This document shows positions 10,073-49,565 of a stretch of 64,000 nt of DNA, one piece after another. Location of the stretch: positions 95,747-159,746 of IMG/VR virus record IMGVR_UViG_3300044691_000566, one strand, 5' to 3'. The stretch's first letter is position 1, and each line of letters begins with the position of its first letter. This DNA is from a virus. A program made the translations under genes and the position numbers. The notes under the pieces are model-generated. The model searched no databases. It was given only the letters and a program-made list of their open reading frames with translations, and was not told where the DNA came from.

Positions 10073-10942
10073 ATGGCGCTCTTCTGGAACGACCGGCAGT
10101 ACGTCTCCCAGTACGCGGTGGACGTGGTGGGCATCCACCTGCTCCGCAACCAGGTCCCGGTGGACGCCGACTCCGGCGTCGCCCTCACCATGGTCTCGGA
10201 GAACACCGGCAGCGAGGTCTTCTCCCGCGCCGCCACCCACAACGCGACCGGCGACTACTCGGCGTCGTTCAACAGCGTGGAGACCTCTGTCCCCGGGTCC
10301 TACACGCTGGCGTGGACCTACGTCCTGACCGGGCAGCCGGAGTACCTGGAGTCCGGCATCGAGGTCGGCCCGGCTGCCCCCTCGTACGACAATCTCGCGC
10401 CGGGGATGAAGGACATCGTGGAGGGGGTCATGATCCGCATCGCGGACACCATCGACTCCCCGGGCGGTGGCCCGAATTTGTTGACATATGTCCAGAGCAA
10501 GTTCGGCCGGGGCCGGATCGCCGAGCTGATGCGGATCGCCCTGGGCCGCCTCAACACGGTCGCCCAGCCCCATCAGACCTACACCCTGGACGGCAATGGG
10601 GGCGCCACCTTCCCCTTCGCCCAGTGGGGTCCGCTGCTGGAGGCCGTGACCTGGGCGGAGACGCTCAAGCATCTGATCCGCAGCTACAACGAGCAGCCGA
10701 ACTTCATCGGCTCCGGCAACATCTCCCGCCTGGACCGCCGGGACTACGTCCAGCGCTGGCGCGACTCCCTCATGGACGAGGAGGCCGCGATCAAGGGGCA
10801 GCTCGATGTCTTCAAGATCGCGTCCATGGGCCTGGGCCGACCGGCTGTGCTGATTTTCGGGGGCGTCTATGGTCGGTACGGGCCCACTCGCATGTCGGGT
10901 AGCGTGGCCGCGCGGCCCCGTTACTGGACGAGATTCTACTAA
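10073..10942 (+). CDS. Hypothetical virion protein
   Basis: 289 residues. An N-terminal beta domain (1-105; LAWTYVLTGQPEYLE) is followed by a helical domain (125-250; GRGRIAELMRIALGRLNT, RRDYVQRWRDSLMDEEAAIKG) and a Gly/Arg/Tyr-rich C-terminus (YGRYGPTRMSG). The join of beta and helical parts is like connector or fibre-attachment proteins, but no family is recognised. It is the last gene before the plus-strand small-RNA array. Confidence 0.6.
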   Translation: MALFWNDRQYVSQYAVDVVGIHLLRNQVPVDADSGVALTMVSENTGSEVFSRAATHNATGDYSASFNSVETSVPGSYTLAWTYVLTGQPEYLESGIEVGPAAPSYDNLAPGMKDIVEGVMIRIADTIDSPGGGPNLLTYVQSKFGRGRIAELMRIALGRLNTVAQPHQTYTLDGNGGATFPFAQWGPLLEAVTWAETLKHLIRSYNEQPNFIGSGNISRLDRRDYVQRWRDSLMDEEAAIKGQLDVFKIASMGLGRPAVLIFGGVYGRYGPTRMSGSVAARPRYWTRFY

Positions 10943-11956: not shown

Positions 11957-12074
11957 TGACAGAGTCAAGTCCTGCATGGCCGGGCGGGACGTGGCGCGGT
12001 GTGGCATGGCTAGGTAGGGCCGGGCAGGGCATGGGCTGTGGAGATGGGGCCTCTTTCGGGAGGCCCCATCGTCT
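11957..12074 (+). ncRNA. GGYNN-repeat small RNA unit (plus array, 5)
   Basis: Promoter TTGACG (11937-11942), 17 bases, CAGAGT (11960-11965); about 11 pentamers with one imperfect; hairpin GATGGGGCCTC / GAGGCCCCATC (12043-12070). No coding sequence lies between this and its neighbours. Confidence 0.65.
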
Positions 12075-12178
12075 TGATAGAGTCAAGTCCCTGGCTGGGC
12101 TTGGTATGGCTGGGCTTGGCGTGGTGAGGCATGGCAGGGGGAGAGGGCCCGGATTTTTAAATCCGGGCCCTCCGCCAT
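12075..12178 (+). ncRNA. GGYNN-repeat small RNA unit (plus array, 6)
   Basis: TGATAGAGT (12075-12083) directly after the previous hairpin; 10 pentamers; 12-bp hairpin GAGGGCCCGGAT / ATCCGGGCCCTC (12143-12172) whose loop is TTTTAA. It isolates the array from the operator-promoter just downstream. Confidence 0.6.
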
Positions 12179-43983: not shown

Positions 43984-44295
43984 GTGACACTCGACATGAT
44001 GGCGGCGCAGATCGTGATGCGCGCCCGCCAGATCGAGCGCGCCCTGCACGATCCCGGACCCTGGACCATCAGGAACCACGGCCACACCTACCCGGCGCGC
44101 AAGGTCATCGGTGACGACCACGTGACCTTCTATGCCGTCGTGGACATTCACCACCCGGTCCTGGAGCTGTGCGCCGGAGAGCGGTCGATCCAGAACGGGG
44201 GACTGGTGGCCTTCAAGACCGTGGAGAACGTGGAGGGCCCGACCCAGGTCTCCTGGGAGTTCCTGGTGGCCAATTTCGAGCAGGTTGCCGCATGA
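43984..44295 (+). CDS. Small hypothetical protein before helicase
   Basis: 103 residues from GTG 43984 (TGGAGGAG upstream). Helical N-terminus (MMAAQIVMRARQIERAL), then strands (WTIRNHGHTYPARKVIG, VTFYAVVDIHHPVLEL). It overlaps the helicase gene by 4 bases, so it is probably made with it. Not recognised. Confidence 0.6.
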   Translation: MTLDMMAAQIVMRARQIERALHDPGPWTIRNHGHTYPARKVIGDDHVTFYAVVDIHHPVLELCAGERSIQNGGLVAFKTVENVEGPTQVSWEFLVANFEQVAA

Positions 44296-46880
44296 CGGCT
44301 ACGGCGACCGAGGCCCCCTCCGGCCAGTCGCCGGAGGGGGCTCTCTACTTTTCGCCTCGCGGTCTGTACCCGTTCCAGGCCGACCACATAGCGCGGATCT
44401 ACCTGGGCATCCAGTCCGGCATACCGGAGTGGATGATCGTCTGGGACACCGGGCTGGGGAAGGCGGAGCCCATATCCGAGCCCGTGCTGACTCCGGTTGG
44501 CTGGGTTCCCATGGGCGACTTGCGAGTGGGACATCAGGTCATCGCGGCGAACGGCCGACCGGCGAAGATCCTTGCTGTGCACCCGCAGGAGTCCCGCGAG
44601 GTGTACCGAGTGGCCTTCTCCGACGGCTCCTGGACCAGGTGCAGTCCCGAACACCTGTGGACGGTCTCCTACTGGGGACCTGACCGATCCTCGGGCAAGC
44701 AGGTTCGGGTCCGGCGGAGCAAGACCGTCACCTTGCGCCAGCTCATGGCTGAGGGGGTCACCACTCCGAAGGGGCGTCGGAAGTTCTCCATCCCCATGAC
44801 CGCCCCGGTGCAGTACCCGGAGCGCAATCTGCCCATGGACCCGTATGCCCTCGGGGTCGTCCTCGGCGACGGCAATGTGAACCCTCGCGGATATGTCTCG
44901 CTGACCACCGACAAGGAGATCATCGACGCCTTGGCCGTCCCGGGGTCCCGGTACGAACACCGTTCTGCTGGCGTGGCGGTCCTGAACACCAACGCGTGGA
45001 GAGAGGTCCTGACGGGCCTCGGACTGGCCGGACGCCGGGCCTGGGAGAAGTCCGTCCCAGAGATCTACCTGCGAGCCCCAGAGGACAGCCGCAGGGCCCT
45101 CCTGGCCGGTTTGCTGGACACGGACGGGTCGCCGATCGAAGAGGGCGGAGTCGAGTTCTCCACGACCTCAGAGGCCCTGCTGGACGCGGTGATCGAGCTG
45201 ACCGAGTCGCTCGGCGGACAGGCCCGCAGCAAATCGTCTCGGTTCACGACCTACACGCACAACGAGGAGACGAAGCGGGGGCGCAAGTCCTGGCGGGTAA
45301 ACGTCAAGCTCAACGAGCAGCCGTTCCGTCTGGCGCGCAAGATGATCCGCTGGACCGAGCCGACTAAGTACCCGGTCCAGCGAATCATCGAGTCCATCGA
45401 GCGCGTGGAGGATGAGGATTCGGTCTGCATCACCATCGACCGCTCAGACGGCCTCTACCTCACCCGCAGCCACATCGTCACGCACAACAGCCATGCCGCC
45501 ATGCGGCTGACCACCCTCGGCTTCGAGGACGACGCGGTGGACTTCGTGCTGCTGGTGTGCGAGCGGGGGAAGCTCAAGGAGTGGCAGGCGGACTTCGAGG
45601 AGTTCACCACGCTCGACACCCGGATCCATCACGGGCCGTCCCGGAACGGGAAGCTGGCCAAGCTCGGGCTACCTCAGGTCTTGATCACCACCTTCGAGAC
45701 CGGCAAGGCCGATCTGGTGGTGATGGAGAAGACCGGCCGCAAGCGGCGCACGTTCGAGACCGGTCCGCTGCTCACGCGGATACTCGAACACTCCAGACGT
45801 CCCATGATCATCTTCGACGAGGCCGACCGGCTGAGCAACCGGTCGGCCGCAAACTATCGGGCGTATGAACACGTCCTCAGGACCTTCCGTAAGGTTTTTA
45901 AAATCCCCGTCCTCATGCTGACCGGGACTCCGATCCGGCGGGACTGGGAGGGCTCATTCAACCAGCTCCGCCTGCTCCGACCTGCATCAATGCCTCTCGT
46001 AGGGGAGTTCGAAAAGTACTTCGTACGGGGGAGGGACGACTACGGCCGGGCCCGGTACCACGACTACCGCATGCCGGAGTTCGCCAACCTCTGCTCGCCC
46101 ATGCTGCTGGCCAAGTCCAAGACCGACCCCGACGTCATCGCCCAGTTCCCCGTGTCGACCGAGGAGGCGTTCTGGGTGGACCTGGAGGGGGAGCAGAGGA
46201 AGTTCTACGATTTTGTCGCGGAGCTGGACGCCCCGGGTCAGATGGCGGCTCTCCGGCAGATCTGCGCCCACCCGGCGGCCCTCCTCCACTCGGCCACCGA
46301 GGGCAAGTCCAAGCTGGCCAGGGCCCTCGTGGACGAGTTCGGCGAGGACTACATACGCTCGCTGCCCTCGGCGAAAACCGACGCCCTGGTCCGCTACGTG
46401 GAGCCGATCGTCAAAGGTCAGGACGCCAAGGTTCTGGTCTTCACCTTCTTCGGCCCCTCGGTGATACCGCACCTGCGCGCGGCACTGACCGCCCGGCACG
46501 TCCCGGTCTTCACCCACGACGACGAAGACGGCATCGAGAATTTTAAGAAGCACCCGGGGGGTGGCGTCCTGCTCGCCTCCGACGCGGTGGCCCGGGGGAT
46601 CAACCTGCCCGAGGCCAGCTACCTGATCGAGTACGACGTGGCTTCGACGTTCGGCCTGCGGACCCAGCGGCTGAACCGGGCCTCCAGGATCGGCAAGGGC
46701 GGCCCCACACTCACCATCCGGACCATGCTGGCGCGGGAGAGCCTTGAGATCGCGCTGCTGCACAACATGCTGGAGGGCAACGCCCAGGCCGACGCCCTGC
46801 TCGGTCACGGTGTGGACGGCTCGGAGTTCATGACGGCCGCCATGCGGCGGAAGATCCTCACCGAGGGCATGGGGGAATGA
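44292..46880 (+). CDS. SF2/Snf2-like helicase interrupted by an intein
   Basis: 862 residues from ATG 44292. The extein is a SF2 helicase of Snf2 type: Walker A TGLGK ends at residue 57 and continues as SHAA at 400; motif II is DEAD in MIIFDEADRLSN (about 505-516); motif III is LTGTP; motif VI is QRLNRASRIGKGG near 790. The removed segment is residues 58-399, leaving a helicase of 520 residues. Phage relatives act in replication or recombination. It sits alone with a small gene between the tail fibres and the RNA region. Confidence 0.85.
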   Translation: MTATATEAPSGQSPEGALYFSPRGLYPFQADHIARIYLGIQSGIPEWMIVWDTGLGKAEPISEPVLTPVGWVPMGDLRVGHQVIAANGRPAKILAVHPQESREVYRVAFSDGSWTRCSPEHLWTVSYWGPDRSSGKQVRVRRSKTVTLRQLMAEGVTTPKGRRKFSIPMTAPVQYPERNLPMDPYALGVVLGDGNVNPRGYVSLTTDKEIIDALAVPGSRYEHRSAGVAVLNTNAWREVLTGLGLAGRRAWEKSVPEIYLRAPEDSRRALLAGLLDTDGSPIEEGGVEFSTTSEALLDAVIELTESLGGQARSKSSRFTTYTHNEETKRGRKSWRVNVKLNEQPFRLARKMIRWTEPTKYPVQRIIESIERVEDEDSVCITIDRSDGLYLTRSHIVTHNSHAAMRLTTLGFEDDAVDFVLLVCERGKLKEWQADFEEFTTLDTRIHHGPSRNGKLAKLGLPQVLITTFETGKADLVVMEKTGRKRRTFETGPLLTRILEHSRRPMIIFDEADRLSNRSAANYRAYEHVLRTFRKVFKIPVLMLTGTPIRRDWEGSFNQLRLLRPASMPLVGEFEKYFVRGRDDYGRARYHDYRMPEFANLCSPMLLAKSKTDPDVIAQFPVSTEEAFWVDLEGEQRKFYDFVAELDAPGQMAALRQICAHPAALLHSATEGKSKLARALVDEFGEDYIRSLPSAKTDALVRYVEPIVKGQDAKVLVFTFFGPSVIPHLRAALTARHVPVFTHDDEDGIENFKKHPGGGVLLASDAVARGINLPEASYLIEYDVASTFGLRTQRLNRASRIGKGGPTLTIRTMLARESLEIALLHNMLEGNAQADALLGHGVDGSEFMTAAMRRKILTEGMGE
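44463..45488 (+). mobile_element. Full-length intein with LAGLIDADG endonuclease in the helicase Walker A
   Basis: 342 residues. It begins with Ala (AEPISEPVLTPVGWVPMGDL) instead of Cys/Ser, as in Ala1-type inteins, and ends THIS-type: HIVTHN followed by extein Ser. Block B lies in HLWTV. LAGLIDADG helices are seen as YALGVVLGDGN (about 184) and LLAGLLDTDGS (about 269). The insertion splits the ATP-binding loop between Lys and Ser, a favoured intein site. Confidence 0.85.
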
Positions 46881-46968
46881 CGAAGAGGTCCTCCGTAGAG
46901 GACCTCTTCTCCCTGCCGTGCCTGGCCTCGCCTCGCCTAGCCATGCCCCGCAAGACCTGACTCTATCA
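46876..46968 (-). ncRNA. GGYNN-repeat small RNA unit, antisense to flanking genes
   Basis: On the minus strand TGATAGAGT (46968), 8 pentamers and 12-bp hairpin GAAGAGGTCCTC / GAGGACCTCTTC (46882-46909). It points against the flanking plus-strand genes, so it cannot be just a leader or trailer of them. Its hairpin is also placed to end the helicase transcript. Confidence 0.6.
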
Positions 46969-46983
46969 GCCCCAGGAGACCCC

Positions 46984-47268
46984 GTGGTGGACCTCGGTCC
47001 TCTCGACGATCCGGCCTACCAACCCGTTCACGCGCCGCAGGACGGCCGTGTGCCGCCCGTGGTGGCCCGCTGGGGGAAGAACTCCCAGCTCCGCTGGTTC
47101 AGGCGCTTCGGGGCCAAGCTGAAGCTCCGGGAGAACGAGGTCTCCGGGTTCTGGGTCTGGTCCGAGCACCATCGGGGGTCTCACTGCGGAGCGTGCCTCA
47201 ACGAGGAGTACGAGGGCACCGGAGTGATCATGGACGGCTGGTGCTGCTGCCGGGACAGCCGAATGTGA
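46984..47268 (+). CDS. Small Cys-rich hypothetical protein
   Basis: 94 residues from GTG 46984 (CAGGAGA upstream). A basic Trp-rich stretch (LRWFRRFGAKLKLRENEV) precedes a cysteine cluster (HCGAC, WCCC) near the C-terminus that may bind metal. It lies between a small-RNA unit and the large RNA region. No family was recognised. Confidence 0.5.
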   Translation: MVDLGPLDDPAYQPVHAPQDGRVPPVVARWGKNSQLRWFRRFGAKLKLRENEVSGFWVWSEHHRGSHCGACLNEEYEGTGVIMDGWCCCRDSRM

Positions 47269-47269
47269 T

Positions 47270-47993
47270 CGACTTGCTACTACGGCATTCGTTGGAGTAG
47301 CGTCTTCCACGTCAGCCCGAGCCGCACTTGGACGCAGCTCGGTAGGGCGATGCACAGCATGACGGCGGCCAGGGGTCTGAGGAAGTCCCCGGCCGCCCAG
47401 AAGCTCCCATGAGATCAGTCCGACTAGGTAGTTCCGCTGATGGGAAGGCGGGGCGTAACGAATCCGGACCCCTGCGGGGAAGCACGGTCTCATGGGCTCC
47501 CAGGCGCTAAAGCTGAGGTCCAGCCCACCTTGCGCCGAAACGGGTAGGTCGGGACACCTCTATGAGGTGTACAGCTCCTGGTCAGCCCCACCAGGGACCG
47601 CAACGGGGCACCTATACGCACGCGGGGCCAGTCGTGATCGAGCCGGTGAATCGACTGGTCCCGCGTGTCCTCGACCGGTATGGCCTCGTTAGGCCATCCG
47701 CGCGACGGGTCAGCCCCACCCGTGGTCGGAAACGGGGCACCCTGGATCCGCGTCGGTCTCCGTTCCGGCGTGACCGGGTAGATCCGGTTTCATCCCTACC
47801 GGATCAGAAACGGTGAGCCGCGTCCTCTTGCCAGCCCGGAAACAAGGACGTAGGGGAGAGCGCACCAGTTCTAGGATCCCCTTCCGTGCAGGCGGAGGGG
47901 GATGGTGCGGGGCAACGACCGTACAGCCCGAACGGCCCCGGATCGGGCACAAAGAAGGGCCTGGACAACTCGTGGAGTCCGGGCCCTTCTTCA
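47270..47993 (+). ncRNA. Large structured non-coding RNA candidate
   Basis: About 720 bases without a supported gene. Stems seen by eye: CGAGC/GCTCG (47319-47341), GGCGGCC-A-GGGG/CCCCGGCCGCC (47364-47397), long-range CCCATGAGA/TCTCATGGG (47406-47496), ACACCTC/GAGGTGT, CCTGGT/ACCAGG, a 15-bp stem (47618-47632 with 47653-47667), ATGGCC/GGCCAT, ACGGGT/ACCCGT, GATCCGGT/ACCGGATC, and a compound stem near 47862-47918. Hairpins with CAGCCC(C) loops followed by AAACGGG-type strings recur (about 47520, 47580, 47705, 47780). It ends in a terminator. Length and ornateness recall phage GOLLD or ROOL RNAs; identity is not shown. Confidence 0.6.
47952..47993 (+). terminator. Terminator of the large RNA candidate
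   Basis: AAGAAGGGCC (47952-47961) pairs with GGCCCTTCTT (47982-47991), with an inner GGAC/GTCC pairing. A tail TTCTTC supports termination on the plus strand. Confidence 0.65.
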
Positions 47994-48013
47994 TGCCCGG
48001 GAACGAGAGGTCC

Positions 48014-48121
48014 AACAACGAAGGGGACCACCCGGAGGTGGTCCCCTTCTCCCTGCCAAGCCAAGCCCCGCCACGCCATACCCTGCCGCGCCTCGCCATG
48101 CCTCAAGACCTGACTCTATCA
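48014..48121 (-). ncRNA. GGYNN-repeat small RNA unit
   Basis: TGATAGAGT at 48121, just after the stop of the minus-strand miniprotein gene; 11 phased pentamers; 12-bp hairpin AAGGGGACCACC / GGTGGTCCCCTT (48021-48048) with tail TTCGTTGTT. It converges on the large RNA's terminator. Confidence 0.6.
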
Positions 48122-48128
48122 GCCCCCA

Positions 48129-48344
48129 TTACACGGGCGGGTGCGAGTGCAGATGGTTCGTACGCTTCCTGCCGCCGCAGGAGTCCCGGTTCTGGCAGAA
48201 GGCCCCGACACCCCGGCAGTGGTAACAGGTGCTCTCGCCGGGGAGTTCGCTCGTCGGCAGCATCCCCACGTAGTGCTTGCCCTCCGCGACGCGCCCCTGG
48301 CCGAAGCACCCCTGGCAGTGCAGATGGGGTCCGGGACACAGCAT
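48129..48344 (-). CDS. DnaJ-zinc-finger-like miniprotein
   Basis: 71 residues from ATG 48344, overlapping the previous stop (TGATG). CQGCFGQGRV and CYHCRGVGAFC resemble the CxxCxGxG repeats of the DnaJ zinc domain; a further Cys and His-rich tail (THLHSHPP-like) follows. No J domain is present. Such miniproteins might bind zinc and act as small adaptors. Confidence 0.6.
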   Translation of the reverse strand: MLCPGPHLHCQGCFGQGRVAEGKHYVGMLPTSELPGESTCYHCRGVGAFCQNRDSCGGRKRTNHLHSHPPV

Positions 48345-48514
48345 CAGCGGCTACCGCCCCGGACCTGTCCGGTGCCCTTGCAGGTGTCGCAGCGCTCGGA
48401 CTGGACGATGGTCTTGCCGTCTGTGTTCTGCCGCTCGACCATGTTGAAGCCCCGGCCCTCGCAGGATCCGCAGTCCTGGAAGACCTCGGATTTCTTGCCG
48501 CGTCTGAATCCCAT
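48344..48514 (-). CDS. DnaJ-zinc-finger miniprotein
   Basis: 56 residues from ATG 48514 (GAGGGGG upstream). Two clean CxxCxGxG motifs, CGSCEGRGF and CDTCKGTGQV, separated by 19 residues, as in half of the DnaJ zinc domain. The N-terminus is basic (GFRRGKKSE). It is transcribed from its own TGATAGAGT promoter and overlaps the second miniprotein. Confidence 0.7.
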   Translation of the reverse strand: MGFRRGKKSEVFQDCGSCEGRGFNMVERQNTDGKTIVQSERCDTCKGTGQVRGGSR

Positions 48515-48545
48515 GTGTGCCCCCTCGGGCCTCGTCCGTGGACCT

Positions 48546-48575
48546 GACTCTATCAGGGCGTGTTGGTCGCGTCAC
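48546..48575 (-). promoter_or_regulatory. Extended -10 promoter driving the miniprotein genes
   Basis: GTGACG (48575-48570), 17 bases, TAGAGT with TGA before it. It is identical in core to the small-RNA promoters but leads directly into a coding gene, with no pentamers. This supports the reading of TGATAGAGT as a promoter rather than an RNA motif. Confidence 0.65.
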
Positions 48576-48579
48576 GCAG

Positions 48580-48686
48580 AATGACGAAGGGGCACCCCCG
48601 TAGAGGTGCCCCTTCTCCCTGCCGTGCCAAGCCCTACCCTGCCCTGCCATGCCAGGCCGAGCCATGCCAAGGACTTGACTCTATCA
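48580..48686 (-). ncRNA. GGYNN-repeat small RNA unit
   Basis: TGATAGAGT at 48686 begins with the stop codon of the antirepressor; 11 perfectly phased pentamers; 11-bp hairpin GAAGGGGCACC / GGTGCCCCTTC (48586-48615). The next promoter starts within 10 bases of the end. Confidence 0.6.
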
Positions 48687-49565
48687 GGACTTGCGCCCTA
48701 TCGGGATCACGTCGGCGTTGCGGTCCGGCACCGCGCTCAGGGCCGGGCGCTGCTGCTGCTGGCGCAGACGCTGCTGGATCCAGACCAAACCGTCCGGAGT
48801 CACCCTTATCTCCGCAAATCCGCTGGGATTGATCCGGAGCCGGAGATGGATCAGGTGCTCGCTGTACGGCACCGGCTGGCCGTCCCTGCGGCGGTAGACC
48901 ATGCGCACCTCCTCGATCCACCTGAACAGCCGTCCAGGCCCGGTGGAGATCCCCGGGTCCCGGTTGAGGATCGCGGCGGCCTCGGCCACCGAGCAGTCCC
49001 CTTGACCGGCCGCCAGGGCGTTCCACGCCTCCGCCGGAGGCCGCAGCTCCTCCACGAGCTGCTCGGCCCTCTGTTGGGCCTCCAGGGCATCCGCCCAGCC
49101 CCTCAGGGCCTCGGCATGGCTCGGCATCTGCGGAGCCGGGGGAGCAGGCGCGGGAGGGGCGTTCAGGGCCTCCTCGATGGCCTCCATACGCATGGTCTTG
49201 ACCACGAAGTACTGCTGGGCCAGGGCGATCTGGGATTTTTTCACGTCGCCGCTCATGGCGGCGAAATAGCACGCCGCCCGGGTCAGCCGGAAGTCCACGG
49301 AGGGGCGTCCGCCCTGGTCAGGGGTTTGTGTCGGTTTGCCGACATTAACCTCCGGGGTCCGCTTGATCAGCCGGAAGTGGTCCCGGACGTCGTACAGGGA
49401 GTCGGTGCTCATCGCGGTGCGGGCCTTGCCGATCACCCCGTTGAAGTGCCGCCACTGCGTGTATCCCATCAAACCGGCCAACTCCCGGGCGAACCAGTAC
49501 TCTCCGTCGTCGTCCACGTACTTGATCGTGTCGAAGGGGGATGACGCTCGTCTCTCAATTGCCAC
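48684..49565 (-). CDS. Phage antirepressor (DinD/BRO-like N-domain, KilA-C-like C-domain)
   Basis: 293 residues from GTG 49565 (GAGGAG upstream). Residues 8-120 resemble the BRO/DinD N-terminal domain: FDTIKYVDDDGEYWFAREL, WRHFNGVIGKA, DHFRLIK, RLTRAACYFAAMSGD. Residues 165-275 resemble a KilA-C/antirepressor C-domain: AWNALAAGQGDCSVAEAAAIL, GRLFRWIEEVRMVYRR, RVTPDGLVWIQQRL. The middle is Pro-rich. Antirepressors bind and inactivate repressors during induction; no CI-type repressor is in the window. Located on the minus early strand. Confidence 0.75.
   Translation of the reverse strand: MAIERRASSPFDTIKYVDDDGEYWFARELAGLMGYTQWRHFNGVIGKARTAMSTDSLYDVRDHFRLIKRTPEVNVGKPTQTPDQGGRPSVDFRLTRAACYFAAMSGDVKKSQIALAQQYFVVKTMRMEAIEEALNAPPAPAPPAPQMPSHAEALRGWADALEAQQRAEQLVEELRPPAEAWNALAAGQGDCSVAEAAAILNRDPGISTGPGRLFRWIEEVRMVYRRRDGQPVPYSEHLIHLRLRINPSGFAEIRVTPDGLVWIQQRLRQQQQRPALSAVPDRNADVIPIGRKS

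Follow-up and report, generated by a model that had tools for sequence, protein, structure and literature searches.

A candidate non-coding RNA gene of about 720 nt in a large contractile-tailed phage carries an H-type pseudoknot that recurs in unrelated phages

The window, a stretch of 64,000 nt covering positions 95747–159746 of a 159.7-kb IMG/VR virus record (GC about 67%), contains a structured, gene-free region that we read as a candidate non-coding RNA gene of a large contractile-tailed phage. In this RNA, conserved 5′ and 3′ blocks would flank a middle that evolves fast and holds several copies of a phage-specific H-type pseudoknot, a reading to which we assign a probability of about 0.6. 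The analysis demonstrated that the pseudoknot exists, that unrelated phages share it and that the region is syntenic with one in a relative. From the sequence, we infer that positions 47270–47993 form one transcript ending at about 47993. The nearest annotated relatives of the record's contractile-tail sheath are actinophage myoviruses, at about 30% identity. The features of the region, all on the + strand, are as follows.

46984–47268 (+): 94-aa ORF P0003 upstream of the RNA region, with no match to a protein family; in L227 a homologue of it stands ahead of the counterpart RNA
47270–47993 (+): candidate non-coding RNA gene of about 720 nt; gene-free, highly structured, with a syntenic gene-free counterpart of about 715 nt in G001/L227
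47283–47318 (+): 5′ conserved block, CGGCATTCGTTGGAGTAGCG..CACGTCAGCCC, common to the relative
47364–47397 (+): hairpin with 11-bp arms, from the inverted-repeat search
47516–47545 (+): pseudoknot copy A, weaker, S1 AGGU/ACCU and S2 GCCC/GGGU, from the sequence and direct repeats
47576–47609 (+): pseudoknot copy B, S1 UCCUGGU/ACCAGGG, L1 CA, S2 GCCCC/GGGGC, from repeats, pseudoknot search and covariation
47619–47667 (+): long hairpin with 16-bp arms, CACGCGGGGCCAGTCG/CGACTGGTCCCGCGTG, from the inverted-repeat search
47705–47738 (+): pseudoknot copy C, S1 ACGGGU/ACCCGU, L1 CA, S2 GCCCC/GGGGC, from repeats, pseudoknot search and covariation
47781–47816 (+): variant D, 8-bp S1 GAUCCGGU/ACCGGAUC and a possible S2 UCAUC/GGUGA, from sequence and fold, with S2 predicted
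47821–47855 (+): 3′ conserved block, CGTCCTC..CAGCCCGGAAA..AGG..AGGG, common to the relative
47919–47948 (+): variant F, S1 CCGU/ACGG and S2 GCCCGA/UCGGGC, from the pseudoknot search
47944–47999 (+): terminator-like inverted repeat with loop aactcgtgga, 23-nt arms, 87% complementary

The first-pass annotation had described 47270–47993 as gene-free and rich in stems, and both points held: hairpins and inverted repeats are present, and no ORF with coding-like codon-position GC was found on either strand between 47269 and 48128. The region begins 1–2 nt past the same-strand ORF P0003. Downstream, the opposite strand encodes a Bro-N/KilAC antirepressor and two short ORFs rich in cysteine, one of which has a DnaJ-type zinc domain scoring just below the Pfam cut-off; downstream genes on that strand lie at 48129–48514. 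The same part of the window encodes an SNF2-type helicase containing a LAGLIDADG intein (44169–46880). An intergenic cassette is also repeated here, consisting of a terminator-like hairpin, a TGCCATGCC-rich stretch and then CTGACTCTATCAG, at sites that include 46881–46969, 48010–48122 and 48544–48687. Allowing at most two mismatches, 15 such sites were found in the window versus 0.7 expected. The cassette, possibly a regulatory or operator element, is present in the relative G004 and absent between the same genes in G001.

The region was compared with that of the relative G001 (155,979 bases), whose sheath is 76% identical and in which helicase, 94-aa ORF, gene-free region and antirepressor follow one another in the same order. 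Its gene-free region (about 715 nt, fold z = −4.3) ends in a strong inverted repeat of its own. Three collinear blocks are shared, at 47283–47318, 47821–47855 and the terminator loop 47968–47983, and the two sequences align poorly elsewhere. Each block alone scores within the range of shuffled sequences and not above the best shuffles, so the case for homology rests on block order and positions. The pseudoknot search of the G001/L227 region found no clear copy of the module, which therefore belongs to the variable middle of the RNA. The suggestion of a new large phage RNA family is thus supported in part, by a syntenic counterpart of similar length in one relative.

Both ends of the region carry possible transcription signals. 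The 5′ block lies just upstream of, or overlaps, TTGCTA-15-GAGTAG, a possible candidate promoter that matches poorly (TTGACT-15-TAGTAA in L227), and the promoter scan of the element called none. At the 3′ end, the strong terminator proposed earlier stood as regards the inverted repeat, whose loop ACTCGTGGAG recurs in the terminator loop of the relative; however, its T-rich stretch sits within the stem and the scan for consensus terminators left it out, so we take termination here as probable at most. The 3′ strand of variant F overlaps a terminator arm, and the two compete.

Direct reading bore out the description of hairpins with CAGCCC loops followed by AACGGG(G), which form direct repeats of 29 nt in three copies starting at 47517, 47580 and 47708. 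Copies B and C fold as a compact H-type pseudoknot with S1 NNGGU/ACCNN, L1 CA, S2 GCCCC/GGGGC and no L2; L3 ends in AAC and is followed by A, and the S1 base pairs are variable, closed by GGU/ACC. The variant noted at 47780 exists but is weaker, with a possible S2 (UCAUC/GGUGA) that includes a G-U pair. An alternative nested fold of copy C, GGGU-CA-GCCCC with GGGGC-ACCC, is the minimum-energy fold of the isolated fragment. This nested option, in which the S1 5′ strand pairs with the ACC just 3′ of S2, is available to copies B and C, L002 and L188, and is missing in most other members.

Exact-pattern scans of IMG/VR recovered the module in L002, L004/L005/L007, L006/L014, L008, L010/L017/L018/L019 and L016. 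A looser pattern, which fixed pyrimidines and purines in S2 and left pairing unforced, added L175, L178/L183 and L188 with S2 GUCCC/GGGAC, as well as the doubtful L184 (S2 GUCUU/AAGAC), which the conservative count excludes, its position being in the open start of an 832-aa frame. The results revealed a compensatory change across phages in S2, from GCCCC/GGGGC to GUCCC/GGGAC, and free variation of the outer S1 pairs. In the alignment of 11 members (L184 excluded), 89.4% of pair cells were standard, both-sided changes occurred at four S1 pairs and one S2 pair, and pairing fell to at most 46% when partners were slid along the alignment. The covariation score was 0.300 compared to 0.117 in shuffled alignments and was reached by none of 500 shuffles. 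This covariation covers the module; the whole RNA of about 720 nt is known from two sequences. Since S2 was fixed in the pattern that retrieved the CCCC/GGGG members, it is the GUCCC/GGGAC group that supplies the evidence for S2, whereas S1 pairs beyond GGU/ACC are independent of the search pattern. Among distinct matches to the unforced-pairing pattern, S1 extended by 2.8 bp on average where S2 was fully paired versus 0.4 bp in the rest (P = 6.6 × 10⁻⁵), in a test that is independent of how S2 was chosen; the few chance coding matches from bacterial genomes in the pooled set work against this difference. Judged by the compensatory changes in both S1 and S2, the module is an H-type pseudoknot, in line with the proposal that loop C-runs pair with downstream G-runs as repeated pseudoknots.

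The module was found in about ten unrelated phage lineages. The strict pattern gave 16 matches in 84,980 species genomes, nearly all in coding sequence; 396 actinobacterial genomes gave one such coding match, which was already known, and the plasmid scan found none. These scans indicate that the module is essentially restricted to phages and rare or absent in bacterial genomes and plasmids. A lone chromosomal copy lies between two genes of Luminiphilus syltensis (L158, reverse strand, about 2023) and is perhaps a prophage remnant or chance. Matches of short motif queries to deposited phages, which were partial or lay in annotated coding sequence, were treated as chance, as were almost all matches to a shorter C-run pattern, which were unpaired; a further variant scan left only L169. 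The DNA similarity search of the element against deposited phages found none.

The genomic settings of the module differ between phages. A start codon follows it at a distance of 14–31 nt in L002, L006, L175 and the groups around L004 and L010, most of these copies falling between early, co-directional genes. The gene preceding it in the L010 group (L010/L017) encodes a single-stranded-DNA-binding protein. Three near-identical tandem copies, spaced about 55 nt apart, occupy the reverse strand of L175 at about 12000–12150, within the leader of the gene that comes first beyond a divergent repressor-like one. L169 (1187–1531) carries a permuted tmRNA, then a pseudoknot variant directly after the tag stop codon, then a terminator-like hairpin; its tag would be ANRLAMAA in our own reading. 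The strict motif was absent from 30 alphaproteobacterial permuted tmRNAs, and host tmRNAs were rejected as its source, as four of them lacked it. Two tRNA genes lie just downstream of the module in L188. In L016 it belongs to a structured, gene-poor stretch, with a tRNA-Gln gene about 190 nt further on, and is followed immediately by a possible tRNA-like fold (10308–10413; 7-bp acceptor, T-arm GTTCGATTC) that ARAGORN did not call.

In L178/L183 the module occupies a gene-free region of about 1 kb before a replication-type gene, beside other pseudoknot candidates. This region is mosaic and apparently structured, and its modules also appear between genes of Pseudomonas, Klebsiella and Escherichia phages and of one cyanobacterial phage, with L233, L234, L236, L237 and L238 among the records sharing them. 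Rfam matched nothing in such regions besides nearby tRNAs, and these sequences appear to make up another, so far undescribed, set of phage RNAs.

We weighed the candidate RNA gene against other explanations of the region. The predicted fold energy (about −368 to −370 kcal/mol) was the lowest in absolute terms among 40 windows, with a z-score of −6.6 or −4.9 in two runs; however, 39 other 724-nt windows of the same GC-rich phage gave a mean z of −1.6 (sd 2.2, minimum −7.8). The z-score is unexceptional for this genome, and fold energy is weaker evidence than it appears. A GC-rich non-coding spacer with chance stems, which this background would suit, is nevertheless very improbable. The element holds four pseudoknot candidates versus 0–2 in 12 shuffles, and the relative has its syntenic counterpart of similar length. 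What we find convincing against chance is that unrelated phages repeat the motif and vary it by compensatory changes; the element itself holds two copies with 22 specified bases each. A long 3′ UTR, or the leader of a longer transcript, would make the pseudoknots cis-regulatory elements with no separate gene, as the copies in short co-directional gaps before start codons, the start of the region right behind a same-strand ORF and the absence of a called promoter would allow. We consider this unlikely, since the downstream genes run on the opposite strand, the region has a terminator-like repeat of its own at its end, and a leader of 720 nt with several copies would be unusual. Prophage replication in actinophages can also depend on a non-coding RNA (PMC7157519), and the region might be such an origin RNA, as in non-RepA mycobacteriophages; this is the least probable reading, as the known origin RNA adjoins parABS, no AAA_31/ParA match was found in this record (G000) or G001, and the other contexts of the motif do not fit.

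Comparison with known RNA families bears on the remaining explanations. Rfam gave no match for the whole window at gathering score, no believable match for the element at E ≤ 10, no match for the RNA of the relative at E ≤ 5 and nothing for the module; membership of GOLLD or ROOL, raised by the first-pass annotation, was therefore not borne out. A cage- or oligomer-forming ornate RNA that works like GOLLD or ROOL with an unrelated sequence is a rather doubtful alternative. It would account for the similar length, the strong structure and the several pseudoknots of a phage-encoded RNA, and for a more conserved 3′ part beside a variable remainder, the pattern described for GOLLD (PMC12286853). 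Against it, neither covariance model matched, and the 64-kb window has no tRNA gene, whereas GOLLD lies near tRNA islands; only weak T-arm-like matches occur about 90 kb away (52.6–52.9 kb of the 159.7-kb record). Multiple pseudoknots in a large phage RNA also recall ROOL, but a repeated short H-type module is no feature of ROOL as described in PMC12286853. Type III antitoxins are built from several RNA repeats (PMC8860590); ToxI and CptI are arrays of H-type pseudoknots. A ToxI-like antitoxin, or a decoy of one, whose repeats neutralise a host ToxN-like nuclease would suit the repeated pseudoknots, including the tandem copies in L175. It is improbable: type III repeats are evenly spaced while the window copies are 63 and 128 nt apart, the strict pattern found no such arrays in bacterial genomes, and ToxN_toxin (PF13958) matched none of 14 motif-bearing phage records or relatives, in a test whose control was likewise silent. 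P0003, the ORF neighbouring the RNA, matched no family.

Two further families share features with the module. The STAXI motif (RF01728) comprises two or three repeats of a pseudoknot and is often located close to genes for single-stranded-DNA-binding proteins (PMC2864571); the module is likewise repeated (copies A, B and C; three in tandem in L175) and in the L010/L017 group follows such a gene. STAXI differs in its frequent UUCG tetraloops, which the module lacks, and even at E ≤ 10 its model gave nothing in 10 records that bear the motif or are related; an F plasmid region considered as a STAXI example was discarded, as it had no STAXI match. Like a permuted tmRNA (RF04321), L169 has the module right after tag and stop, at the place of a pseudoknot, but neither tag nor tRNA-like domain was seen in the window RNA, with no match by ARAGORN or Rfam; phage two-piece tmRNAs (PMC9004378) were among the systems compared. 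The window RNA was filed under none of the families compared because, for each, at least one tested defining feature is missing from it, and the module looks like a new viral RNA element outside Rfam.

For the candidate RNA gene and its pseudoknot, we propose that the module most likely acts as a compact, stable recognition or roadblock element. It could be bound by a common host factor, such as the ribosomal or RNA-decay machinery, or could block exoribonucleases. Single copies would shield or control adjacent phage mRNAs and the end of a phage tmRNA, and several copies in one RNA would provide a long-lived multivalent platform or a decoy for the host factor. The varied contexts that share the module speak for a host target in common and against a function bound to a single gene. 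More tentatively, and with clearly less confidence than in the RNA gene itself, the module may be a mobile phage RNA element reused in mRNA leaders, beside tmRNA and in large non-coding RNAs, in every case against the same conserved host target, for which the window RNA would serve as a decoy or scaffold with several copies.

That phages of different hosts retain one pseudoknot through compensatory changes, while it is hardly seen elsewhere, implies that it meets a common target in the infected cell. The settings of this pseudoknot before start codons, after a tmRNA and in multi-copy large RNAs offer several independent systems in which to search for that target, and the window RNA would add a type of large phage RNA beside GOLLD and ROOL.
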